A DNA stretch of 64,000 nucleotides from a virus: positions 19,641 through 83,640 of IMG/VR virus record IMGVR_UViG_3300037486_000467; one strand, 5' to 3'. Positions 9,198 through 41,707 of the stretch are shown piece after piece (position 1 is the stretch's first letter; each line of letters opens with the position of its first letter). The notes beneath the pieces are model-generated. The model ran no database searches. It was not told where the DNA came from and was given only the letters and a program-made list of their open reading frames with translations. A program made the position numbers and the translations under genes.

Positions 9198-9905
9198 ATG
9201 GAGTCTCCTATTATCATATATAATAAATTAAAAGATATAGATAACATTAAAGATGTTGCGTACACACGCTTATTTGAAAATTATCTTGAACTTGAATTAA
9301 AGGGTCCTGATAAATTAATAGAGATTGATTCAACAGATCAAGAATCTGTCTTAAATAAGCTTAAAAGAGGGCGTCCAGTTCATGGAATGTTATATACATT
9401 TATTCATTTAAATGATACAAATTTATTAGAATTACAAAATTACAAAACAGGAAAAAATGTTGAATTTCATGATTTTACTCCTATAGTTTTTTGCATGTCT
9501 TATAATAATGATAAACATTTATTGAAGGGCCTGAATCTTATCATGTTACCACATAAAGAGCGAGTAAAGTTTTTTCAAGCATATTGGGAAATGTACAGAA
9601 AATTTCTGAATAGAGTTGAAGAATTAACTGAATATAATAAATCTGCGATTAATATAGAATATCAAATTGCAGCATTATCAGGAAAGAACTCTGAAATAAT
9701 AAAGATGTTTAATAACAAACAGAAGGCTATGTTTAATTTTGCTTATAGATCTTATGAAATGAAAAATCTTCGTAAATTTAGAATGCTTGAGTATGAAGAA
9801 TGGCAATATGTTCCATTCTTTGATGCGCAAACTTCTTTTAAGAAGATTAATTTAGTTAATATGTATCAAACATATTATGAAAATAGAAATAGTTATTTAA
9901 AATAG
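9198..9905 (+). CDS. Conserved T4-type phage protein, function unresolved
   Basis: This 235-residue protein contains 'DFTPIVFCMSYNNDKHLLKGLNLIMLPHKERVKFFQAYWEMY' and 'RKFRMLEYEEWQYVPFF', a pattern I associate with a widespread protein of T4-like phages that has a 'GLNLHYLP' box. I cannot name its role with confidence. It follows the gp4-like gene by 10 bases, so a head or neck assembly role is plausible. It converges with the leftward gene at 9897 and overlaps it by nine bases. Confidence 0.6.
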   Translation: MESPIIIYNKLKDIDNIKDVAYTRLFENYLELELKGPDKLIEIDSTDQESVLNKLKRGRPVHGMLYTFIHLNDTNLLELQNYKTGKNVEFHDFTPIVFCMSYNNDKHLLKGLNLIMLPHKERVKFFQAYWEMYRKFLNRVEELTEYNKSAINIEYQIAALSGKNSEIIKMFNNKQKAMFNFAYRSYEMKNLRKFRMLEYEEWQYVPFFDAQTSFKKINLVNMYQTYYENRNSYLK

Positions 9906-10616
9906 TTCTATATTATTAATACACTTTTTAGCATCTATAAAATCTATAATTTGTGAATTTTCGCAGTCTCGTTTGAATTTGCGAGTAGTTATTTCTACAT
10001 TTATATGTTCTAAATCTTTATAATCGAATTGAGGAAATGGATGTAAATGAGTGTTATATACAGGACCACAATATGCTCGTCCTTTATTAATGTTAAAGTT
10101 AAACCGTCTGCCATCCTTTATATAAACAATAAAACCTATATTTAACTTCTCTAATTCTTTATAGGTTGTATCAGCGGGTATTTTATTATATTCTATTAAT
10201 AAATTTAACGCTTTTTCTTTATGCATTGTGTGTCCAGACTCTTGTCTATTTTTACATATTCTAACTGATTTTTCTTTAAATCTTTGTAAAGAATTTGTTG
10301 TGGCTTCTCTAAATTGTTCAATAGCTTTTTCTGGATTTTTATCAAATAGAAACCATTCATTATATCTTACTGAATTTTTTTGTCTAGGTATTCTCATACT
10401 AGCTAAAGAATCAAAAATCTGATGATCTGTCATTTTATCAGAAATTTCAACTGTACAGCTATATTCTCCTATTTCCCAAGTTCCTCTAGATAAAGTAGCT
10501 AAATTTTTTTTTAAATTTTCAGTGTTTCCTACTTTATACATACCTATTCTTGCATCTGAAGGCGTGGTATAAAGATAAGCAAATCTCTGTTTTTCTGTTT
10601 TGTTATCTGTTTCCAT
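9897..10616 (-). CDS. T5orf172-type GIY-YIG-like domain protein
   Basis: This is the only leftward gene in the left block (239 residues). Its N-terminus 'AYLYTTPSDARIGMYKVGNTENLKKNLATLSRGT' fits the T5orf172/MUG113 group, a GIY-YIG-related domain found alone or fused to other modules in large phages. The usual catalytic residues are not all evident, and the C-terminal half (from about residue 130) is unfamiliar. It has its own upstream region with an 11-bp inverted repeat. Its orientation and position between gp4 and portal genes suggest a later insertion (moron). Confidence 0.6.
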   Translation of the reverse strand: METDNKTEKQRFAYLYTTPSDARIGMYKVGNTENLKKNLATLSRGTWEIGEYSCTVEISDKMTDHQIFDSLASMRIPRQKNSVRYNEWFLFDKNPEKAIEQFREATTNSLQRFKEKSVRICKNRQESGHTMHKEKALNLLIEYNKIPADTTYKELEKLNIGFIVYIKDGRRFNFNINKGRAYCGPVYNTHLHPFPQFDYKDLEHINVEITTRKFKRDCENSQIIDFIDAKKCINNIELF

Positions 10617-10776: not shown

Positions 10777-12570
10777 ATGGCCGGCTTCGGACTAAGAAAC
10801 CTCGATAAAAGATCAGCATCTTTTTTAGATAATATACAACGTAACATACGTTATCTCAGCATCCTTGGGATGAAATGGGATGAAAAAGTAATAAAACAAT
10901 CTCGTGCCATAGGTATTAGTGAAATGACTGAAGACTCTATGTATAGTCTTTATGGTCAACATCAACTATATTCAGGCGCAGATATTAATCAAAAAGAATT
11001 TATTGCATTCTTTGATAAAGAATATCCTACAAGAAGAGATTTCTTGAGAAGATTTGCAATGAATGGAGAAATTGAACATGTTATAGAAGTTATAGCAGAT
11101 GAAACTATCATTCAAGATGATGCTAATTTCTTTGCTTATCCCAATACTAAGAAATTAAAATCTGTTCTTAAAGCTGAAAAAGCAAAAGAAATTGTAGATG
11201 ATCTTAATGAATCATTCAAAAAGGTTTATTATGCCTTTGGCTTTAATAGTGGCCATGATGGATGGCATTATGCTAAAAAATTCTTAATTGATGGTTTCCT
11301 TTCTTTTGAAATTATTTATGACGGTGAAGGTTCAGATCCAGCTAAACATATATTAGGATTTAAAGAACTTGATCCAGTTACTCTTGAGCCTGAAATGAGA
11401 AAAGACGAAGAAGGAAATGAGTATAGAATGTGGATACAATTTAGGGGAGATTCAGAAAAACAAAGAGAATTAGTTGACGGAAATATAATTTATATCTCTT
11501 GGGCAAGAGGAAATTTTATATCTCGTCTATCATATGTTGAAAGACTTGTTAGAGCATTCAACATGCTTAGAACAATGGAGAATTCACGTATTATTTGGAA
11601 TGTTATGAATTCTCAACAACGTATGAAAATAGTTGTTCCTATTGGAACTCAATCAGAGGTTAAAGCAAGAACTCGTCTTTCAGAACTTCGAGCTATGTAT
11701 AAAGAAGATGTTACAATTGATTATCAAAGTGGAGAAGTTACAATAAATGGTACGCCAAATTTCTCTTTCGCTAAACAGTATATTTTTCCTGTAAAAGATG
11801 GCCAACAAGTTGATGTAAATTCATTTGCTCCAGCAGGTTGGGATTTGTCAGGAACAATGGCTCTCGATTATTTTTGGAAAAGATTTATTATTGAAACAAA
11901 AGTTCCTAAAGATAGATTTACAACAACAGGAGAAGAAGGCGGTCAGGGCAGCAATTGGTCTAGTGGTGGTGAAGGTATTGCTAGAGAAGAAATTAGGTTT
12001 GCTTATTTTATTAATCGTATTCGTTCTATTCTTCAAGAAATATTGTTAAAGCCTACATGGATACAATTTTGTTTAAAACATCCTGAATTTGCACAAGATA
12101 AAGCATTACGAGGCGCTATAGGTCTTGAATTTGTTGAAGAAAACTTATTTACAGAAGCCAAAAAACGTGATATAGCAGAAAAGGGTGCTGCAATAGTTAC
12201 TACACTTATGGGCATAAATCAACCCGAAGTTGATAATGAAGGTGTAGTAAATAATGACGGAATGTACTTTGATCCTAAATTCTTAGTTGAAAAGTATATG
12301 GATTATACTGATGAAGATCTTAAACTTAATGAAAAATATAAGAGAGAAAGAAGAGAACAATTAACTCGTATTGCAGATAGCATCAAGCGTATCAATGCAA
12401 TTAAAGGCACAGGAGAAGAAGGAGAAGCTGGCGCAGGTGGTGACATGACTGGCTTAGGAGGAATGGAAATGGGCGGTGGCGAAATAGCCGGAGGAGCTCC
12501 AACAGAACCTGGCGCAGAAGGCGAAACCGGTGAAGAAGAAGCGGGCGGCACAACTGAATTAGGAGTTTAA
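10777..12570 (+). CDS. Portal protein, T4 gp20-like
   Basis: This 597-residue protein has the gp20-family core: 'FDKEYPTRRDFLRRFAMNGEIEHVIEVIADETI', 'GFKELDPVTLEPE', 'LVDGNIIYISWARGNFISRLSYVERLVRAFNMLRTMENSRIIWNVMNSQQRMKI', and 'RFTTTGEEGGQGSNWSSGGEGIAREEIRFAYFINRIRSIL'. The portal is the dodecameric ring through which DNA is packaged and ejected. It is longer than T4 gp20 (524 residues), mainly through a C-terminal Gly/Glu/Met-rich tail from about residue 545. A late-type promoter precedes it and small membrane proteins follow. Confidence 0.9.
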   Translation: MAGFGLRNLDKRSASFLDNIQRNIRYLSILGMKWDEKVIKQSRAIGISEMTEDSMYSLYGQHQLYSGADINQKEFIAFFDKEYPTRRDFLRRFAMNGEIEHVIEVIADETIIQDDANFFAYPNTKKLKSVLKAEKAKEIVDDLNESFKKVYYAFGFNSGHDGWHYAKKFLIDGFLSFEIIYDGEGSDPAKHILGFKELDPVTLEPEMRKDEEGNEYRMWIQFRGDSEKQRELVDGNIIYISWARGNFISRLSYVERLVRAFNMLRTMENSRIIWNVMNSQQRMKIVVPIGTQSEVKARTRLSELRAMYKEDVTIDYQSGEVTINGTPNFSFAKQYIFPVKDGQQVDVNSFAPAGWDLSGTMALDYFWKRFIIETKVPKDRFTTTGEEGGQGSNWSSGGEGIAREEIRFAYFINRIRSILQEILLKPTWIQFCLKHPEFAQDKALRGAIGLEFVEENLFTEAKKRDIAEKGAAIVTTLMGINQPEVDNEGVVNNDGMYFDPKFLVEKYMDYTDEDLKLNEKYKRERREQLTRIADSIKRINAIKGTGEEGEAGAGGDMTGLGGMEMGGGEIAGGAPTEPGAEGETGEEEAGGTTELGV

Positions 12571-13247: not shown

Positions 13248-13320
13248 CATTAGATTAACAAATATATAATATCAAATTATGTAATTTATATTATATTGTT
13301 ATATAGTTCTTTAAAATATT

Positions 13321-13588
13321 GAGAAATGCTCTACGGAGCTAGTTATAGAGTAGGTATGCAACACCGCGGTTCGACCCCGCGCACCTCCACAAAAGTTTGT
13401 AGCGAAATCTCGGTCTCTTTTCAAAAAGCCGAACTTCAATAGGGGGTGACCTGGCTTTGACTGCATATTGAGGGTGTTAATGAACGTCTCAACACGTCAA
13501 ATAAACGACGCAAACATTTATGAAATGCAAATGGCTGCTTAAGAAGCACTCATTTACAGGAAACTGGCCGGTCGCCTAAGGTACCGGC
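13321..13588 (+). ncRNA. ssrA: Circularly permuted (two-piece) tmRNA gene
   Basis: tmRNA rescues stalled ribosomes and tags the nascent protein for degradation. Here the 3' half precedes the 5' half. The acceptor piece (about 13321-13391) has a T arm, CGCGG / CCGCG (13365-13369 / 13377-13381) with loop TTCGACC, then CACCTCC (13382-13388) and discriminator A. After a spacer of about 50 bases, the coding piece starts GGGGGTG (13442-13448). GGGGGUG pairs with CACCUCC over 7 bp, including G3-U70, the alanine identity pair. TGCATA (13462-13467) pairs with TATGCA (13355-13360) as helix 2. The tag frame lies at 13510-13542, and a hairpin (AAATG...CATTT) encloses its stop codon. CCA is not fully encoded. 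This matches the layout of the permuted tmRNAs known from alphaproteobacteria and some cyanobacteria and betaproteobacteria. Confidence 0.88.
13510..13542 (+). CDS. tmRNA proteolysis-tag reading frame
   Basis: From the resume codon GCA, the frame reads ANIYEMQMAA and then TAA. The Ala-Asn start is shared with the E. coli tag and the final Ala-Ala is the usual protease-recognition end, but the centre is unlike the common NYALAA form. Confidence 0.8.
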   Translation, partial: ANIYEMQMAA

Positions 13589-13595
13589 TTTTTTT
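13567..13595 (+). terminator. Rho-independent terminator of the tmRNA gene
   Basis: GCCGGT (13567-13572) pairs with ACCGGC (13583-13588), with an extra CC/GG pairing in the loop, followed by seven T. The stem is much richer in G and C than the surroundings. Confidence 0.85.
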
Positions 13596-13619
13596 ATCTT
13601 TCGTTATTAGCAACGGGGA

Positions 13620-32086: not shown

Positions 32087-35000
32087 TTATTTGCCAAAAG
32101 TTATTGTTCCATTATCAGTTCCAAAAAAGCGAAATTGAAATGTTCCCTGAGGTAATCCGGTTATAGGCGCAAGTTGTTCATCAGGTTTTCCAGCATTTAA
32201 TTTAGTAAAGGCTTCAGCAGCAGTAGCAAGTTGAGTTGTAGCTGCTGATAATTTAACTAAATTAGCATCTAAAGAATTATATCCTCCAGCAGGACCGCCA
32301 GAAGAAGGCATATTTTTGAAAGCGCCCGAATTGACTAATTTTTCAAGATTTTTAACATCTAATGCTCCCATATTACTAACTAATAATCCTAAATTAGTAG
32401 CAAGATCCCCTAAACTCTTAGATAATTTATCTACTCCGGATAAATTAGTTGAAAAACTGTTAAGTTTTGAAATTACATCGTCAAAACTCTTTAAATTTTG
32501 ATCAATTGTTTTTCTTTTAGCTTTATCTGTTTCGCCGCCGCTTGCTAAATCTACAGAAAACGCTTTATTAATTTCTGTCATAAACATAGATATGCCATTA
32601 GTCAGGCCTTTTACTATTTTATCAATTGGTTTATGAGTTATTTTTCCATTTTCGTCAGTTACTGGAAATCCTGCTGAAGTAATGTCTGCGTATTGCCCTA
32701 ATACTTCTGCAAATTTTAAAATAGGCTCTATTAATCCAGGCTTATCTTGTTTCCACGGCAACTTAAATTTTCCAAATAATCTTGGCGCTTGTTGTCCTAA
32801 AAGAAGTTGCGCTATATTTACAGTAGTATCATTAGATAAAGTTTCTAATGTAGATTGTTGATTTTTAAATTCAGTAAAAAATAATGACAGCGCTTTAACT
32901 ATATGTTCTGCAACAGTTTTTGGAGAAATAGAAGTTCCCTTCTTTATCTTTCCTTTTTCATCAACATCATAAACAGGAATTTTATCTTTTTCTGCAAATA
33001 AAGAAAGCAAATTAGCAAATTTAGTTAATGCGTCTATTATTCCTGGTTTTTCTGCTATACGTATTCCTAAAAATTTACGTGCACTAGTTCCTAACAATAT
33101 TTGAGAAATTTCTCCTATTTTTTTATCAGAAGGTATAACTGCAGTGTTTTTAAACAATGTTGTTAATGTAGTAAAGAATGAAGAAAGCGCAGTAACTATT
33201 TTAGTTGCAGCTCCTATCGGAGAAGCATAGCCTGCTACTTTTGTATTTCCGTTTGCATCTACACCTTCAAAAATAGGTATACTTTGAATCTTTGAAAATT
33301 TTGTAAGTAAATCTGCAAATTTAGATAATGCATCAATTATTCCTGGCTTATCATTTAATTTCCCTTTTCTAACTAAACGCTGTGAAATCTTACTTCCTAA
33401 TAATGATTGCGCAATTCTTTCTACGTTTTCAGTATCAGGCGTATATATTTTAGTAGTTAATTCTCGGAAGAAACCAGAAATTGAATTAGCTATAGTAGTC
33501 GCTATAGTAGCAGGATCTGTATAACTTATTATCTTTGGCTTTCCTTTATCATCAACTTCATAAACTGGCATTTGATTAATTTTTCCATACATTGAAATCA
33601 TTTTTGCAAATTGAGATAATGCATCGACTAATCCTGGATCATCTGGCACGCCTTTTCTAATTAAACGTCTAGATATTTCAGTTCCCAATAATGCATGAGT
33701 AATATTTATTATCTCATAATTAGATGGAATCTTTATACCTTTTAATCCTTGAAAGAATTTAGAAATTGCTGATGTGATATTAAGCGCTATTTTTTCGGGC
33801 TCAACATATTGTTTTATTTTTGTTTTTCCTTCAGCATTAATATCATAAACAGGAATTACAGTAGCTTTAGAAAATGTAGAGAGTAAATCTGCAAATTGAG
33901 ATAATGCATCGACTAATCCTGGATCATCTGGCACACCTTTTCTAATTAAACGTCTAGATATTTTAGTGCCTAATAATGCGTGTGTAATATTTGTTATTTC
34001 AGAATTAGAAGGTAACGCTATGCTTGTTAATCCTGTAAAGAACTTAGAAACAGAATTGCTTATATTTTTTGCAATATCTACGGTGCTAATGTAACTTTTT
34101 ACTACAGGCTTTCCATCTTCTATATTATAAACCGGAAGGTGATCAGCTTTATTAAATATAGAAAGTAGATCTGCAAATTTAGTTAATGCATCAATTAAAC
34201 CAGGATATTCTACTGTTTTTGTTGTACGCATTCCTAAAAATCTTGGACCTTTAACTCCTAATAATGCTTGAGTAATTACCCATATATCATCCATCGAAGT
34301 TAACTTACTTCTTATACCAGATAAACCAGTAAAGAACGATGAAATTGTTGTAGCTATATTAGTTGCTACTGTTCCAGGATCTACATATCCAGATACTTTA
34401 ATATTTCCTTTATCATCAACTGCATAAACAGGAATTTGATTTACTTTTGAAAAGATAGTAAGCATCTCTGCAAATTTAGTTAATGCGTCTATTATTCCGG
34501 GAGTTCCAGTTGAATATACTCTTATTCCCAATAATTTGGGGCCAGCATTACCCATTAATAATTGAGATATAACTGCCATTTTTGCTGCTGAAGGCATAAC
34601 TGTGTTCTTTTCTCCAAATGTTTCTATTAATGATGAAAAGAATGAAGAAACTGTACCAGCTATTGTGCCAGCTATGTATGCAGGAGTAACATATTCAGTT
34701 ATTTTAGCTTCACCATCTACAATTTCGTAAATTGGAAGTTGATTTATTTTTGAATATACAGTAATTAATTCAGTAAATTTAGTTAATGCATCTATTATTC
34801 CTGGAGTTCCAGACGAATGTAACTTTATTCCTAATAGTTTGGGGCCAGCATTACCCATCAATAATTGAGAAACTGCTGCCATTTTTACTGCTGAAGGAAT
34901 TATTTCAGGATTTTTGAATGTTTCAATAAGAGTAGTAAAAAATGATCCTATTGATTTAGCTATATTTGTTCCTGCTGATACAACATCTATTTCTGGGCCA

Positions 35001-38000
35001 AATATGGGATTTCCTTTTGCATCATGTCCAGTAATAGTTTTTACTACACCTGCTTTTGTAAAAGCTTTTAAAGATGTAGCAAACAATATAAGAGCTAAAG
35101 AAACTCCTCCTAGTAATCCTATTGATGCTATTAATATGTCTACATTTTTAATAACTTTTCCAACTTTTCCAAAAAATCCTTCTGGCCTATCTCCCTTTTC
35201 TCCTAATACTCCTATGCTTATTCCACTTATAATACCTTGTAATACACCGCTTAGCAATAATGATATGTTTTCAGTCATAGTATTTACACCATCTTTTCCA
35301 CCCATCTTATTAATGATAGCGCCTATTCCCATTGATACTAGTGCAAATGCGCCAAGAGAGAATGACATTGCAATAAGAACCAATGCGCCTTTTGCTATAG
35401 GTATTGCAGCTAAGCCTAAAGCAGCTAATGTTAATCCTAATAATGCTATTCCTTTGGCTGTTGTTAAAAGCATTTTACCAACGTCAATTTTAAAAACTTT
35501 ATCCAATAATGCATACGTACTACCTAATGCTAATAATCCTCCAGTTAACCATAGTATTCCTTTAGCCATTGGTTTAGCTACTAATGCCCCTAAGAATAAA
35601 GGTATACTAATGATTCCCAATCCAGCAAACAATAGGCCCATTAGCCCAATTGCGCCCATCGAAATTAGCAAAGCTTGTCTGGTTTTTTCTGGACTTCCAG
35701 TCATTATGTTCATTAGCGTATATGATCCTATCATCGCTAGTAAGCCTATTGCTACAATTCCTATTCCTACGCCCATCATTGCTATAGCAGCACTACCTAG
35801 AGCTATTGGTACAGCTAACATACCTATCATAGCAAATCCTCCTGCTAATATTGCAAGAGAACCTACGATAGTTCCCATAACTTGTCTAGGTTCAACTTTA
35901 AATATAGCTGATGCTACATATATTGTAGTGACTAATATAGCTATTGATCCAGCAAATGCTAACATTACTTTAGCAATGCCACTTAATACTTTGCCAATTC
36001 CTATAAAAGCTACTCCTACCGCTGCTATTACTGTTGCACCTGCTAAAAGCACGGGAGCTGCAACGCCTGCTGCCCCAACTACTCCAAGTAAAGCAGTCAA
36101 TCCTACAGTTGTAGCTGTTAATAATCCAGTTGAAGATACTATTCCAAATCTTAATACGCCTTTGGCTAATTTGGGCAATGCTTCTCCAAGAGCAACTAAT
36201 AATCCAGCAGTAATCATTACTTCTGGAGATAATTTAGATAGTTTAGCCAGTCTATCCATAAAGTCTATTATGGAATTTTTAAATGCAGTTGGAATTACTC
36301 CAAAGAATATTAATCCCTTAGATAATTTAGGTAATGCATCTGCAATAATTCCCATAGATTCTGCAACAATTTTTGCAGTTAGTGTAGCAATTTTTCCCTC
36401 ATGTTTAGATAAATCATACAACTTTTTAATAAATGACAATAAAGATGTTTTAAATGCTCCCGGAATTAATCCAAATTTTATGAGTCCACTACTTAATTTA
36501 GGCAACGCTGTAGCAATAATTCCCATAGATTCAGCAGCTATTTTTGATGCATCAGAAGATTTTTTGCCTTTATATTCAGATAAAGATATTAATTCTCTAA
36601 TAAATGATATTAAAGATGTTTTAAATACTTTAGGAATTAATCCAAATTTTAAAACTCCTCCTGCTAAATTTGGTAATACATTTACAATAATGCCCATTGA
36701 TTCGGCTGCTATTTTTGCAGCCTCATTAGATTTTTTGCCTTTATAAGTAGATAAAGATAGTAATTCTTTAATAAATGATATTAGCAATGTTTTAAACATT
36801 TTGGGAATTAACCCAAATTTTATGAGTCCAGCTCCTAAATTTGGTAATGCTCCAGCTATAATACCCATTCCTTCGGCAGCAGTTCTTGCTGCTTTTCCTG
36901 CATCTTTTCCTTTGTGTTCAGATAATGATAATAAATCTTTTACAAAAGTTATTAGTGATGTTTTAAATCCTTTTGGAATTAATCCAAATTTTAAAAGTCC
37001 TCCAGAAAGAGGCCCTAATACTGAAGATAGATTTTTAATTGCTTCAGACGTATCAGTTAAACTTGTTGTAGTTTTTTTATCTACTGAAATAGATTCTACA
37101 TTAGCATTTAGAGCTTTTAAAGATTTTCCAATTAAAGATAATTTCTTTAAATCTTTTGTTACGTCAAAATCTTTAAGTTCAGTGCTAAATTTATTTAAAG
37201 TTTTTATAATAGTAGATAAATTGATAGATAGTTGTTTAGTAGCATCAGTTATATCGACGTCTTTAATAGTAGATAACTCTGTCAAACTCTTTGCAAAATT
37301 AGTAATAGATTTTACAGTTTCTTCGGGAATAGAATCTACACCAGAAATTTGATTTACTAATTTAGATACAGAATCTCCAATTATCGCTAAAGTTTTTTCT
37401 AATTCTTTGGCTGCATCAGCAGATTTTAATTTTCCGGAAGATAAGTTAAATAATTCTTTAATAAATTCAGAAATTTGTTTTGGCTTTTCAGCAGCTATAT
37501 TAAATTCAGATATCTTTGTAAAGAATTTTGATAAAGAATCACCAACTTCATTTATAGATTCTACTGTGGTTTTGGTAGTTTCTATAAATTTTGTATCTTT
37601 AAATATGGGTAATGAAAATAAATCTTGAATGAAACTATTTAAAGATTTTTTGGTTTTATCTGAAATTGAGTCAAATGAAGATAATTTTGTAAAAAATTCT
37701 GATAAAGAAGAGCCCATTACAGTTATAGATTGTATCATTTCTGTTGGAACTGATTTAATTCCAGAAATAACATCTATTAATTTTGTAATAGAAGTTCCTA
37801 TAATTATTAAACTTTTATCTATTTCATTTGCAATTTCAGTTGATTTATTTTTTGTAAATGAAGATAGAGAAAACAATTCTTTAATAAATTCAGATATCTT
37901 TTTTGATTTATCAGCAATTATTTCTACACTATTTATTTTTGTAAAAAAGCCTGATAGAGAATCTCCAACAACATTCATAGATTCTAATGTAGTTTTAGCA

Positions 38001-41000
38001 GTTTCTATAAGTTTCGTATCTTTAAATATAGATAATGAGAAAAACTCGTTAATGAAATCAGAAATTTGTTTTTTAGATTTGTCAGAAACACTAAACGTAG
38101 ATATCTTTCCAAAAAACTCTGATAAATAATTACCAATTATTGCTACAGATTCTCCAGTTGCTTTAACTACTTCTGCGAATTTTACATCTTTGAATATAGA
38201 TAATGAAAAGAAATCTTGTATAAAATTCTTTAACGATTCTTTAGATTTATCAGAGATAAGTTCAAACTTTTTAATAGTTTGCAGTAATGATGGAAATGAA
38301 TCTCCTATTACTTTTAATGTTTCTGATAAATTTTTTGCATTATCAATAGTTTTAGTATCTTGGAATACAGATAAAATATTTTGTATAAATTGTTTGATTG
38401 ACTTTCCTGATTTAGAAATAGCTTCAAATTTAGCAGTTTGGCCAGAAAATGATATTAATGAGTTTCCAATTATAGATAAAGATTTTTCTAATTGTTTAGC
38501 ACTATCAACTGACTTAAGATTATTAAATAAAGATGAAAATAAACTTTCAATAAAATTTATAGTAGATGTTGCAGAAGTATAAATATTTTCTGGAACAACA
38601 CCAATCTTTAATAATTTTCCTGTAAATGTAGATAACATATTTACTATAATAGATAAATTTTTATCTAAATCTTTTACACTACCAAGAGATTTAACATCTT
38701 TGAATATAGATAACGAAAATAAATCTTGTACAAAGGCTGCCGTAGATTTAGCAGATTTATATATTGCATCAGGTATTACTTTAAATTTTCCTAATTTTTC
38801 TGTAAATGCCGATAACATATTTACTATAATAGATAAATTTTTATCTAAATCTTTTACATCATCAAAAGATTTAATATTATCAAATAAAGATAATGAAAAT
38901 AAATCTTGTATAAAATCTACTGTAGTTTTAGCAGATCTATAAACTGGTTCGGGTATTATTTTAAATTTTCCTAATTTTTCTGTAAATGCAGATAATGTAT
39001 ATCCTATAATAGATAAAGATTTTTCTAATTGTTTTATGTTATCAAGAGATTTAATATTATTGAATATAGATAATGAAAATAAATCTTGTATAAAATCTAC
39101 TGTAGTTTTAGCAGATCTATAAACATTTTCTGGAATTGCGCCAATTTTTGGTAATTTTTCTGTAAATGACAATAAAGAATTAACTATGATATATAATGAT
39201 TTATCTAATTCTTTTAAAAGATTCGGAGATTTAAATTTATCAAACAAAGATAAAGAAAATATATCTTGCATAAAATTAAGAGCAGTTTTTGCAGAAGAGT
39301 ATATATTTTCAGGAACTGAACCTATTTTGGCTAATTTTCCAGTAAATGTTAATAACGAATCTATTATAATCAATAGAGATTTTTCAAATTCTTTTAAAGT
39401 ATTAATAGATTTAATATTATTAAATAGAGATAATGAAAATAAATCTTGTATAAAATCTACTGTAGTTTTAGCAGATGCATATGTGTATTCTGGTATTGCA
39501 TTTAATTTCATCAATTTTCCTGTAAATGTCAATAGCAAATCACCCACAATTGATAATGATTTATCTAATTGTTTTATTATATCTGCTGATTTAAATTTAT
39601 CGAATAATGATAATGAGAATATATCTTCTATAAAATTCAGTGTGGTTTTTGCAGAAGCGTAAATATTGTCAGATATGTTACCTATTTTTGGTAATTTTCC
39701 TGTAAAAGATATTAACGAATCTACTATAGTTGATAATGATTTATCTAATTGCTTTATTGTATTAATAGATGTAGTTTTGTCAAACATAGATAGAGAAAAT
39801 AAATCTTGAATAAAATCTACTGTAGTTTTTGCAGATTTGTAAACATTTTCGGGTATAATATTTAATTTTATTAATTTATTAGTAAATACTGAAATTGAAT
39901 CTATAATAACAGACAATGATTTATCTAATTGTTTTATTATATCTACTGATTTAAATTTATCAAATAAAGATAATGAAAAAATGTCTTGTATAAAATTTAA
40001 TATAGTTTTTGCTGAAGCATAAATACCTTCTGGAATTGAACCAATTTTAGATATTTTTCCGGTAAATGATGTCAATATATTTAATATAGCAAACAACGAT
40101 TTATCTGTCTGCTTTATATTATCAATTGATTTATTAGTATTAAACATAGACATAGAAAATAAATCTTCTATGAAATTTGCAGTAGTTTTTACAGCTTTAT
40201 ATGTTATAGCAGGCAATATATCAAATTTTGCTATTCTTTCAGTAAATTGTAATAAAGTATCTGTAATTATATTTAATTCTTTAGATAAATTTTTTGGAGT
40301 TACGCCTAGCTTTTCATTTTTAAATAGAGATAGAGAGAATAAATCTTGAATAAACCCAACAACAGTTTTTGCAGAATTAAAGACTGCTTCTGGTACTAAA
40401 TCAATTTGAGTTAGATTTTTAGCAAATAATAATAATGAATCACTAATAATGAATAATGATTTATTTAGTTGTTTGGCATCATTTAATTTAATATTTTTAA
40501 ATATTGACAATGTAAATAAAGATTCAATAAAATCTATTGTAGTTTTCGCAGATTTATAAATATCTGGAGAAATTGAACTAAATGATGATAATTTTTCAGT
40601 CAATTGAAATAATACATTTCCAAGTTCATCAAAAGCGCTTGATATTTTTTTTGCAACTTCGATAATATTTTTATCTTTAAATAATGATAAAGAAAAAAGT
40701 TCTTTTATGAAATCTGTTGTAGTTTTTTTAATATTTTTTGTTGTTAATTCAAATTCAACTAACTTTTTAGCAAATGTAGGTAATGAATCGCCTACAATAA
40801 GTAAAGAACTCTCTAATTGTTTAGCTGCAGTAATAGAACTTGCTTTATCAAAAATTGATAGAGAAAATAAATTTTGAATAAAATCTATAAAAGAAACTTT
40901 GGCCTTATTGGGAATAGAATCTATTATCGTTATTCCATTAGTTAATTTAGATAATGAATTACCTATAATTTCTATCGCTTCTGCTGTAGTTTTTGCTGCT

Positions 41001-41707
41001 AGAGTAGAACTCATATTTTTAAATACAGACAAAGATAATAAATCATTAATAAAATTTAGAGTAGTTATTTTTGATTTATCTGGCACCAAAGAAAATTTAA
41101 TTATTCCACCAGATAAATTGATTAAAGAACTTCCAATAATAGCTAATGCATTAGATATAATTTCTGCAGTTTGTGTAGTTTTAAGATTTTTAAACACAGA
41201 TAAAGAAAATAAGTCTTTAATAAAACCTATTAGCGATGTTTTTGATTTATCTGAAACTTTTCCAAATTTTATTATACCTAAAGATAATTCAGATAATGAA
41301 TTAACAATAATAGCTATAGCTTCTGCTGCAGTTTTAGCCGCATCAGTAGATTTTATATCTTTAAACACAGATTGTGATAACAAATCATGAATAAAATTTA
41401 CAATTGATTGTTTTAATGTTTTTGGAACTGCAGCAAATGCAGAAATACTTTTTGTTAATTCTGGCAAAGATGCTGATAAAATTTTAAGAGATTCTGCGGT
41501 ATCTTTTATTTGACCAGTTGTTTTTTTATCAGTCGCAAATTTATCGAGATCTAATCCTAAGCCTTTGGTTTTACGCTTTGCATCAGCTGTTTCTACATCA
41601 ACTGCTCCAGCAGATTTAATACTTTGCTGTACATTTTCTAATTTTGTATCTATTTTCCCAAGTACGCCTAAAATATCTTTTAATAACTCCGGAGAAGTCT
41701 TCATCAA
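32087..41707 (-). CDS. Tail tape measure protein
   Basis: This 3,206-residue protein lies directly after the gp26-like and chaperone-like genes, the usual place for a tape measure. Residues about 60-1820 are some 27 imperfect repeats of about 60 residues with a core like 'VDFIQDLFSLSLFD'. A hydrophobic stretch (about 1860-2200, 'LLTATTVGLTALLGVVGAAG') is followed by eight repeats of about 100 residues ('GIIDALTKFAELLTIFSK...VPVY...'). At roughly 0.15 nm per residue the tail would be near 480 nm if the whole protein is helical and extended. It has its own late-type promoter. Confidence 0.9.
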   Translation of the reverse strand: MMKTSPELLKDILGVLGKIDTKLENVQQSIKSAGAVDVETADAKRKTKGLGLDLDKFATDKKTTGQIKDTAESLKILSASLPELTKSISAFAAVPKTLKQSIVNFIHDLLSQSVFKDIKSTDAAKTAAEAIAIIVNSLSELSLGIIKFGKVSDKSKTSLIGFIKDLFSLSVFKNLKTTQTAEIISNALAIIGSSLINLSGGIIKFSLVPDKSKITTLNFINDLLSLSVFKNMSSTLAAKTTAEAIEIIGNSLSKLTNGITIIDSIPNKAKVSFIDFIQNLFSLSIFDKASSITAAKQLESSLLIVGDSLPTFAKKLVEFELTTKNIKKTTTDFIKELFSLSLFKDKNIIEVAKKISSAFDELGNVLFQLTEKLSSFSSISPDIYKSAKTTIDFIESLFTLSIFKNIKLNDAKQLNKSLFIISDSLLLFAKNLTQIDLVPEAVFNSAKTVVGFIQDLFSLSLFKNEKLGVTPKNLSKELNIITDTLLQFTERIAKFDILPAITYKAVKTTANFIEDLFSMSMFNTNKSIDNIKQTDKSLFAILNILTSFTGKISKIGSIPEGIYASAKTILNFIQDIFSLSLFDKFKSVDIIKQLDKSLSVIIDSISVFTNKLIKLNIIPENVYKSAKTTVDFIQDLFSLSMFDKTTSINTIKQLDKSLSTIVDSLISFTGKLPKIGNISDNIYASAKTTLNFIEDIFSLSLFDKFKSADIIKQLDKSLSIVGDLLLTFTGKLMKLNAIPEYTYASAKTTVDFIQDLFSLSLFNNIKSINTLKEFEKSLLIIIDSLLTFTGKLAKIGSVPENIYSSAKTALNFMQDIFSLSLFDKFKSPNLLKELDKSLYIIVNSLLSFTEKLPKIGAIPENVYRSAKTTVDFIQDLFSLSIFNNIKSLDNIKQLEKSLSIIGYTLSAFTEKLGKFKIIPEPVYRSAKTTVDFIQDLFSLSLFDNIKSFDDVKDLDKNLSIIVNMLSAFTEKLGKFKVIPDAIYKSAKSTAAFVQDLFSLSIFKDVKSLGSVKDLDKNLSIIVNMLSTFTGKLLKIGVVPENIYTSATSTINFIESLFSSLFNNLKSVDSAKQLEKSLSIIGNSLISFSGQTAKFEAISKSGKSIKQFIQNILSVFQDTKTIDNAKNLSETLKVIGDSFPSLLQTIKKFELISDKSKESLKNFIQDFFSLSIFKDVKFAEVVKATGESVAIIGNYLSEFFGKISTFSVSDKSKKQISDFINEFFSLSIFKDTKLIETAKTTLESMNVVGDSLSGFFTKINSVEIIADKSKKISEFIKELFSLSSFTKNKSTEIANEIDKSLIIIGTSITKLIDVISGIKSVPTEMIQSITVMGSSLSEFFTKLSSFDSISDKTKKSLNSFIQDLFSLPIFKDTKFIETTKTTVESINEVGDSLSKFFTKISEFNIAAEKPKQISEFIKELFNLSSGKLKSADAAKELEKTLAIIGDSVSKLVNQISGVDSIPEETVKSITNFAKSLTELSTIKDVDITDATKQLSINLSTIIKTLNKFSTELKDFDVTKDLKKLSLIGKSLKALNANVESISVDKKTTTSLTDTSEAIKNLSSVLGPLSGGLLKFGLIPKGFKTSLITFVKDLLSLSEHKGKDAGKAARTAAEGMGIIAGALPNLGAGLIKFGLIPKMFKTLLISFIKELLSLSTYKGKKSNEAAKIAAESMGIIVNVLPNLAGGVLKFGLIPKVFKTSLISFIRELISLSEYKGKKSSDASKIAAESMGIIATALPKLSSGLIKFGLIPGAFKTSLLSFIKKLYDLSKHEGKIATLTAKIVAESMGIIADALPKLSKGLIFFGVIPTAFKNSIIDFMDRLAKLSKLSPEVMITAGLLVALGEALPKLAKGVLRFGIVSSTGLLTATTVGLTALLGVVGAAGVAAPVLLAGATVIAAVGVAFIGIGKVLSGIAKVMLAFAGSIAILVTTIYVASAIFKVEPRQVMGTIVGSLAILAGGFAMIGMLAVPIALGSAAIAMMGVGIGIVAIGLLAMIGSYTLMNIMTGSPEKTRQALLISMGAIGLMGLLFAGLGIISIPLFLGALVAKPMAKGILWLTGGLLALGSTYALLDKVFKIDVGKMLLTTAKGIALLGLTLAALGLAAIPIAKGALVLIAMSFSLGAFALVSMGIGAIINKMGGKDGVNTMTENISLLLSGVLQGIISGISIGVLGEKGDRPEGFFGKVGKVIKNVDILIASIGLLGGVSLALILFATSLKAFTKAGVVKTITGHDAKGNPIFGPEIDVVSAGTNIAKSIGSFFTTLIETFKNPEIIPSAVKMAAVSQLLMGNAGPKLLGIKLHSSGTPGIIDALTKFTELITVYSKINQLPIYEIVDGEAKITEYVTPAYIAGTIAGTVSSFFSSLIETFGEKNTVMPSAAKMAVISQLLMGNAGPKLLGIRVYSTGTPGIIDALTKFAEMLTIFSKVNQIPVYAVDDKGNIKVSGYVDPGTVATNIATTISSFFTGLSGIRSKLTSMDDIWVITQALLGVKGPRFLGMRTTKTVEYPGLIDALTKFADLLSIFNKADHLPVYNIEDGKPVVKSYISTVDIAKNISNSVSKFFTGLTSIALPSNSEITNITHALLGTKISRRLIRKGVPDDPGLVDALSQFADLLSTFSKATVIPVYDINAEGKTKIKQYVEPEKIALNITSAISKFFQGLKGIKIPSNYEIINITHALLGTEISRRLIRKGVPDDPGLVDALSQFAKMISMYGKINQMPVYEVDDKGKPKIISYTDPATIATTIANSISGFFRELTTKIYTPDTENVERIAQSLLGSKISQRLVRKGKLNDKPGIIDALSKFADLLTKFSKIQSIPIFEGVDANGNTKVAGYASPIGAATKIVTALSSFFTTLTTLFKNTAVIPSDKKIGEISQILLGTSARKFLGIRIAEKPGIIDALTKFANLLSLFAEKDKIPVYDVDEKGKIKKGTSISPKTVAEHIVKALSLFFTEFKNQQSTLETLSNDTTVNIAQLLLGQQAPRLFGKFKLPWKQDKPGLIEPILKFAEVLGQYADITSAGFPVTDENGKITHKPIDKIVKGLTNGISMFMTEINKAFSVDLASGGETDKAKRKTIDQNLKSFDDVISKLNSFSTNLSGVDKLSKSLGDLATNLGLLVSNMGALDVKNLEKLVNSGAFKNMPSSGGPAGGYNSLDANLVKLSAATTQLATAAEAFTKLNAGKPDEQLAPITGLPQGTFQFRFFGTDNGTITFGK
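32680..34980 (-). repeat. C-terminal tape-measure repeats (about 8 copies)
   Basis: Each copy reads G-[IL]-[IV]-D-A-L-[TS]-x-F-[AT] near its start, then an IPVY-type strand, then 'ISSFFTGL'. The copies are about 300 bases long. The class is distinct from the N-terminal repeats. Confidence 0.75.
36240..41500 (-). repeat. N-terminal tape-measure repeats (about 27 copies)
   Basis: Period is about 180-200 bases; the conserved core reads F-I-[QK]-[DE]-L-F-S-L-S-[LI]-F, followed by an A-K-x-L/I-[DE]-K-S-L segment. Adjacent copies around 38,700-39,900 are the most alike, suggesting recent tandem duplication. Confidence 0.8.

Follow-up and report, generated by a model that had tools for sequence, protein, structure and literature searches.

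A circularly permuted tmRNA gene in a phage very probably infecting Bacteroidota

The RNA termed tmRNA (SsrA) frees stuck ribosomes and marks their products for destruction. The window analysed here, a stretch of 64,000 nucleotides forming a portion of an 83.6-kb viral contig, carries on its forward strand, at 13,316-13,596, a circularly permuted tmRNA gene, the parts of which are listed in Table 1. A scan of the window with all Rfam models, the covariance search proposed along with a sequence-only reading of this DNA, yielded a match to RF04321 (tmRNA_permuted) at 55.1 bits, above the cutoff of 47 (E 5e-8), which spans the full model (positions 1-213) and is the only above-cutoff Rfam match across the 64 kb. 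ARAGORN independently calls a permuted tmRNA at the locus, and both programs agree with the order of the parts in the sequence, where, as that reading had proposed, the acceptor part lies ahead of the coding part. Among the older permuted models, beta_tmRNA (RF01850) comes top at 38.3 bits, below its cutoff of 84, and the remaining models of the clan score lower still, such that Alpha_tmRNA is not the best of them. A match to RAGATH-22 downstream of the gene (21.8 bits, cutoff 120) was taken as chance. The phage records showed no DNA similarity to the window tmRNA or to the first 25 kb.

Table 1. Parts of the permuted tmRNA gene and the upstream portal gene, in window coordinates
Feature	Coordinates	Strand	Evidence or remark
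Portal protein gene, synteny anchor for relatives	10777..12570	+	phrog_213, E 1e-49
Acceptor piece, outer helix-2 5' strand AUUGAGA	13318..13324	+	pairs with 13487-13492; covaries
Acceptor-piece hairpin GCUC-UACG-GAGC	13328..13339	+	RNAalifold consensus pairs, double changes
Acceptor piece, middle helix-2 3' strand	13342..13346	+	pairs with 13477-13481; RNAalifold columns 34-38 with 118-122
Acceptor piece, inner helix-2 3' strand GUAUGC	13354..13359	+	covariation
T arm, stem CGCGG/CCGCG, loop UUCGACC	13365..13381	+	RF04321 match, covariation
Acceptor stem 3' strand CACCUCC and discriminator A73	13382..13389	+	RF04321 match, covariation
Intervening sequence, 52 nt	13390..13441	+	lacks a significant fold
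Acceptor stem 5' strand GGGGGUG	13442..13448	+	covariation; G3-U70 invariant
D-loop-like segment ACCUGGCUUUGAC, Bacteroidia-type UUUGA	13449..13461	+	comparison with relatives
Coding piece, inner helix-2 5' strand GCAUAU	13463..13468	+	covariation
Coding piece, middle helix-2 segment	13477..13481	+	RNAalifold
Coding piece, outer helix-2 3' strand UCUCAA	13487..13492	+	covariation
Tag frame (most likely DANIYEMQMAA) and stop codon	13507..13542	+	ARAGORN; alignment with relatives
Helix 5 equivalent around the stop codon	13527..13557	+	RNAalifold columns 176-207, several double changes
Probable terminator: terminal hairpin (GCCGGU/ACCGGC) with a U run behind it	13567..13596	+	sequence; stem covaries in relatives

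The tRNA-like domain comprises a T arm, a D-loop-like segment and, in place of the anticodon arm, helix 2, while the acceptor is of the alanine type, with all seven stem pairs formed (CACCUCC/GGGGGUG), G3-U70 and A73. These pairings, including the five-pair T stem (CGCGG/CCGCG) and the six-pair helix 2 (GUAUGC/GCAUAU), were already recognised in the sequence-only reading, and the spacer which it put at roughly 50 bases measures 52 nt. That reading placed the gene at 13,321-13,588, yet its 5' start lies slightly further upstream, the helix-2 segment from 13,318 having been overlooked. This outer segment (13,318-13,324 with 13,487-13,492) joins the far ends of both pieces; the middle segment is weak in the window, with 4 pairs. 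No CCA is encoded, A73 being followed by CAA. The spacer folds no better than its shuffles (z-score 0.15), and an automated terminator scan limited to loops of up to 8 nt did not report the terminal hairpin.

The coding piece contains a short frame with a resume codon, two terminal alanines and a stop codon. The earlier tag, ANIYEMQMAA, is in the right frame and one codon short according to ARAGORN and the aligned relatives: since the relatives have GGC or GAC at the aligned resume position, the resume codon is most likely GAC at 13,507 and the tag the 11-residue DANIYEMQMAA. The distance between helix 2 and the resume codon is only 14 nt, and the PK1 stem of the RF04321 model is mispaired there, so PK1 looks absent; inspection of the coding piece recognised none of PK2 to PK4. 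The pseudoknots PK1 to PK4 are typical of tmRNA, although they have been lost in some accepted tmRNAs and are hence not defining. More speculatively, a hairpin of 3-4 bp around a conserved AAUAAAC may be a stand-in for PK1.

Whether such an assembly of parts is maintained can be judged from its relatives. With the portal gene 0.7 kb upstream of the tmRNA as anchor, 24 related loci were retrieved, the portals of which are 64-90% identical, and 11 distinct relatives besides the window carry a permuted tmRNA downstream of the portal. In the resulting alignment of 12 distinct sequences of the window family, 93.5% of the cells at paired positions are base-paired and 17 of 23 pairs show double changes, values equalled in 0 of 500 shuffles, and the covariation signal is abolished when the helix partners are slid against each other. 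Double changes affect four of the five counted pairs of the outer helix-2 segment, five of six in inner helix 2, and 33 of the 49 pairs of the RNAalifold consensus. The acceptor stem varies from CACCUCC/GGGGGUG to CAUCUCC/GGGGAUG, CAGGUCC/GGGCUUG and others, with G3-U70 invariant in all 12 sequences, and the tag frame, the stop codon and the -AA end are likewise retained in 12/12. These compensatory stem changes around a constant G3-U70 mean that the window gene is under selection as a folded RNA.

The tail sheath, terminase and portal genes identified on the window indicate a contractile-tailed phage, and since the longest contig of a relative reaches 405 kb, phages of this family are large. 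Uncultured phages aside, the portal (~40% identical) and the terminase (~36%) are nearest to those of Prevotella Lak phages; ARAGORN detected no tmRNA near the portal in two Lak phages or in LR756500. Directly before the portal gene of the window lies a T5orf172 (GIY-YIG type) gene (9897-10616, minus strand), possibly a homing endonuclease, and a minus-strand open reading frame of 3,206 codons extends over 32087-41707. A Shine-Dalgarno-like motif precedes just one of the 45 long genes, and scarcity of such motifs is expected for Bacteroidota. The same Bacteroidia-type marks characterise a second clade of permuted tmRNAs (clade 2), which includes a prophage (L177), Maribacter phage Panino and crAss-like Burzaovirus phages. 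The prophage, with genes for DNA polymerase, helicases and an integrase, resides in a Bacteroidota genome the own tmRNA of which is one-piece. A Bacteroidota host, as assumed in the sequence-only reading, thus agrees with the prophage and Panino relatives, the Bacteroidia-type marks, the few Shine-Dalgarno motifs and the Lak-like portal and terminase, and on these sequence comparisons the hosts of the window phage family are very probably Bacteroidota. In 396 Bacteroidota genomes, under strict filters by which weak matches are lost, RF04321 matched the L177 prophage only, and one-piece tmRNA was found in 60 of 61 Bacteroidota genomes. A genome-collection scan for permuted genes of the Bacteroidota type returned 25 matches, of which 4 were tmRNAs, all one-piece.

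The gene order, the covarying and conserved structure, the tag frame, the phage context and the Bacteroidia-type marks are observed features of the locus, and we infer its processing, its charging with alanine, its function and a separate origin. Altogether we consider it probable that this is a functional, compact permuted ssrA of a large contractile-tailed Bacteroidota phage, yielding a two-piece RNA cut by the host, the permutation of which arose separately from a Bacteroidia gene. By analogy with known two-piece tmRNAs, a single transcript would be processed by the tRNA enzymes of the host, with RNase P acting at G1 (13,442) and RNase Z or exonucleases trimming after A73 (13,389), whereupon CCA would be added. 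The acceptor piece would come to ~74 nt and the coding piece to ~150 nt, the two being joined through acceptor-stem and helix-2 pairing, such that the mature tmRNA would total ~225 nt, compared with 366-402 nt for one-piece genes fetched from Bacteroidota. Alanyl-tRNA synthetase would charge the RNA with alanine via G3-U70, and host SmpB would bind it and deliver it to stalled ribosomes, where the tag DANIYEMQMAA would be added, its -AA end being a plausible protease signal. Host SmpB would be needed, since neither the window contig nor five other viral contigs, of up to 405 kb, yielded a gene for SmpB.

The sequence-only reading had also raised the prospect of function as an unprocessed molecule, and one could envisage that the permuted tmRNA acts uncut, or serves mainly as a decoy for SmpB, alanyl-tRNA synthetase or stalled ribosomes, and not in ordinary tagging. 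Structured and conserved spacers in some relatives would suit this alternative. However, aminoacylation needs a free 3' end after A73, and the unprocessed form is disfavoured because an uncut spacer would block it; moreover, the tag frame with its stop and two final alanines, kept throughout the family, and helix 5 in the consensus speak for tagging, so that we regard a decoy as very improbable. Less probable still is that a host gene, captured via recombination or integration, is decaying here: tmRNA genes are frequent integration sites (PMC11915505), but among divergent relatives both compensatory stem changes and synteny are kept.

The question then is whether the permutation itself is new. 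The UUGA D loop occurs in 17 of 18 Bacteroidota-phage permuted tmRNAs and in 0/37 other permuted genes. Encoded CCA is found in none of these 18 and in two of 20 Bacteroidia one-piece tmRNAs, as opposed to 13 of 14 alphaproteobacterial permuted genes and 20 of the 23 other phage permuted tmRNAs sampled, which unlike the window lack the UUGA D loop altogether. Tags of the Bacteroidota-phage permuted genes mostly start with Gly, often with Gly-Glu (cf. GENNYALAA of Bacteroidia). The one-piece tmRNA of Bacteroidia thus shares with the window group a UUUGAC D loop, a tag start like UAAACGGCGAAAAU (the GENNYALAA type) and a mostly unencoded CCA, and differs from the window in being unpermuted and longer. 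In an expanded tree, 28 Bacteroidota-phage permuted tmRNAs share one branch (support 88/98), and another (97/96) splits all 14 alphaproteobacterial and 21 of the 23 other phage permuted genes from the Bacteroidota-phage and Bacteroidia one-piece genes; a first tree is consistent with this, the relationship of clade 2 to Bacteroidia differing between the two, and both were built without cyanobacterial permuted references. Because of the trees and the characters of D loop, CCA and tag, a separate permutation is favoured: most likely it was distinct from the alphaproteobacterial, betaproteobacterial and cyanobacterial events and took place in a phage lineage, with a Bacteroidia one-piece tmRNA as its source.

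Against this stands the alternative that the phage lineage inherited a tmRNA permuted beforehand, in alphaproteobacteria or marine phages, and only afterwards fitted the D loop, the tag and the 3' end to Bacteroidota hosts, with no new permutation. Marine phages do carry permuted tmRNAs (PMC9004378), an AAGAC/AACAC linker is common to family 1, to which the window belongs, and several of those marine genes, and the acceptor-piece hairpin is present in the alpha model too. Similarly, three relatives (L089, L090 and L101) have an alpha-like T loop, GGCRGAA, together with A replacing the first G of the D loop. AU tests are compatible with such a history, giving p 0.2-0.4 for alternatives that include all permuted genes in one clade, over ~160 comparable columns. 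The profile of the 72-nt tRNA core is ambiguous for family 1, the window itself scoring marginally higher against other phage permuted genes (43.1) than against Bacteroidia (39.0), and a comparison of 41 nt about the resume codon assigned it clearly to no lineage. Yet inheritance would have to contend with the 97/96 branch separating the groups and with Alpha_tmRNA not being the top older model for the window. Further, clade 2 cores score higher with the one-piece tmRNAs of Bacteroidia (45-61 bits) than with alphaproteobacterial ones (2.5-7.6), and in L052 the helix-2 sequence (GACAGCAAG with CUUGUUUGGAC) matches Bacteroidia one-piece tmRNA, although helices are free to drift. We hence hold an inherited permutation to be unlikely and retain a separate one derived from Bacteroidia. 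As an observation apart, GGCRGNN T loops of the alphaproteobacterial type (L089, L090, L101, L279, L281) accompany AG at the place of the GG in the D loop, an apparent tertiary covariation in two separate lineages.

Some permuted tmRNAs carry within the spacer a conserved 23-nt H-type pseudoknot, GCUAAC-NNNN-CGC-GUUAGU-NNNN. It is absent from the spacer of the window; within the window family L089 and L101 carry it, as do several genes of clade 2, and the spacers with this motif include L138, L052, L054, L089, L101, L270, L272, L273, L275 and L278-L281. A scan of the 2.9 million viral contigs of IMG/VR, with stem 1 fixed and stem 2 nearly free, found 15 stretches, 14 of them in tmRNA genes: 11 have the full permuted-tmRNA context, and three (L269, L274, L277) adjoin tmRNA sequence by inspection. 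Stem 2 is complementary in all 14 of these and not in the lone match without the context, and three of its four pairs show compensatory changes. The same pattern had no match in 396 Bacteroidota genomes. Other spacer modules are shared among relatives (L284, L285, L293; L085, L091; L107, L291), for example GGUGGUGGAAUCCUGACC...CGUCCAGUUUCUGGA and UCCAAUAGUGCCC...GGCCA.GGAU. That the tmRNA underwent a fourth independent permutation, which arose and was kept in Bacteroidota phages and not in a cell, and that in a subset the spacer is a conserved pseudoknotted domain controlling processing or otherwise functional, is a compound proposal to which we attach an even chance.

The cellular lineages which the sequence-only reading named as having permuted tmRNA, namely alphaproteobacteria, some cyanobacteria, some betaproteobacteria and some mitochondria, are consistent with the literature, and a 2025 tmRNA database distinguishes three main permuted clades (PMC11915505). 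The description, in the sequence-only reading, of a permuted tmRNA in a Bacteroidota phage as unexpected is right as to a permuted gene borne by a phage; the surprise is lessened by published phage cases and by public records of Bacteroidota phages, in which permuted tmRNA genes are labelled simply SsrA. ARAGORN identified 53 phage permuted tmRNAs, mostly marine or aquatic and related to alphaproteobacterial, gammaproteobacterial or cyanobacterial lineages (PMC9004378), among them those of Melnitz and Pelagibacter phage Mosig, likewise permuted and phage-borne. Compared with members of RF04321, a model merged from alpha, beta and cyanobacterial types, the window agrees in gene order, in the tRNA-like domain, in having a segmented helix 2 and in the tag frame, but it scores 55 bits, against 113-162 for 21 permuted genes of Pseudomonadota, and lacks the encoded CCA and the PK1 stem while having a D loop and tags of the Bacteroidia type. 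Closer are Maribacter phage Panino (PP540027, PMC11590407) and the crAss-like cr7_1, both on the Bacteroidota-phage branch of the window; these and cr124_1 share with the window a Gly or Asp resume codon and the lack of CCA, differ in their tag family (GKVMNVSFAPTVRQFA, DNVNNIVDYTNVA), and are annotated as SsrA only, the passages retrieved from the Panino paper (PMC11590407) making no mention of permutation.

Phage tmRNAs vary in other directions too. One viral contig encodes a one-piece tmRNA-like RNA of ~81 nt with no tag region (L136:8368-8448, minus strand; RF00023, 69.4 bits), resembling phage DS6A in idea; a one-piece phage tmRNA (L135:715-1132, also L139) carries VKSQSERVAEGASIIAMAFASEVAVAA, a tag of 27 residues; tags of 22-29 residues occur in several other permuted tmRNAs of phages; and a Pistol ribozyme (L029:12718-12780, 58 bits) lies ~3.5 kb from a permuted tmRNA.

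Phage permuted tmRNAs as such are already known, and it is the lineage that is new. Neither the Bacteroidota-phage lineage nor the spacer pseudoknot is described in the literature searched, outside which lay subscription papers and supplements, and the permuted tmRNA that recurs in Bacteroidota phages appears to form a fourth, hitherto undescribed lineage of the permuted gene. The spacer pseudoknot is a new structured element with a testable role. If a further origin is true, permutation would be a repeatable route, kept in phages despite one-piece hosts. Phages would then make their own compact tmRNA bearing their own tags, for which faster rescue, redirected protein turnover and escape from host control are candidate reasons.
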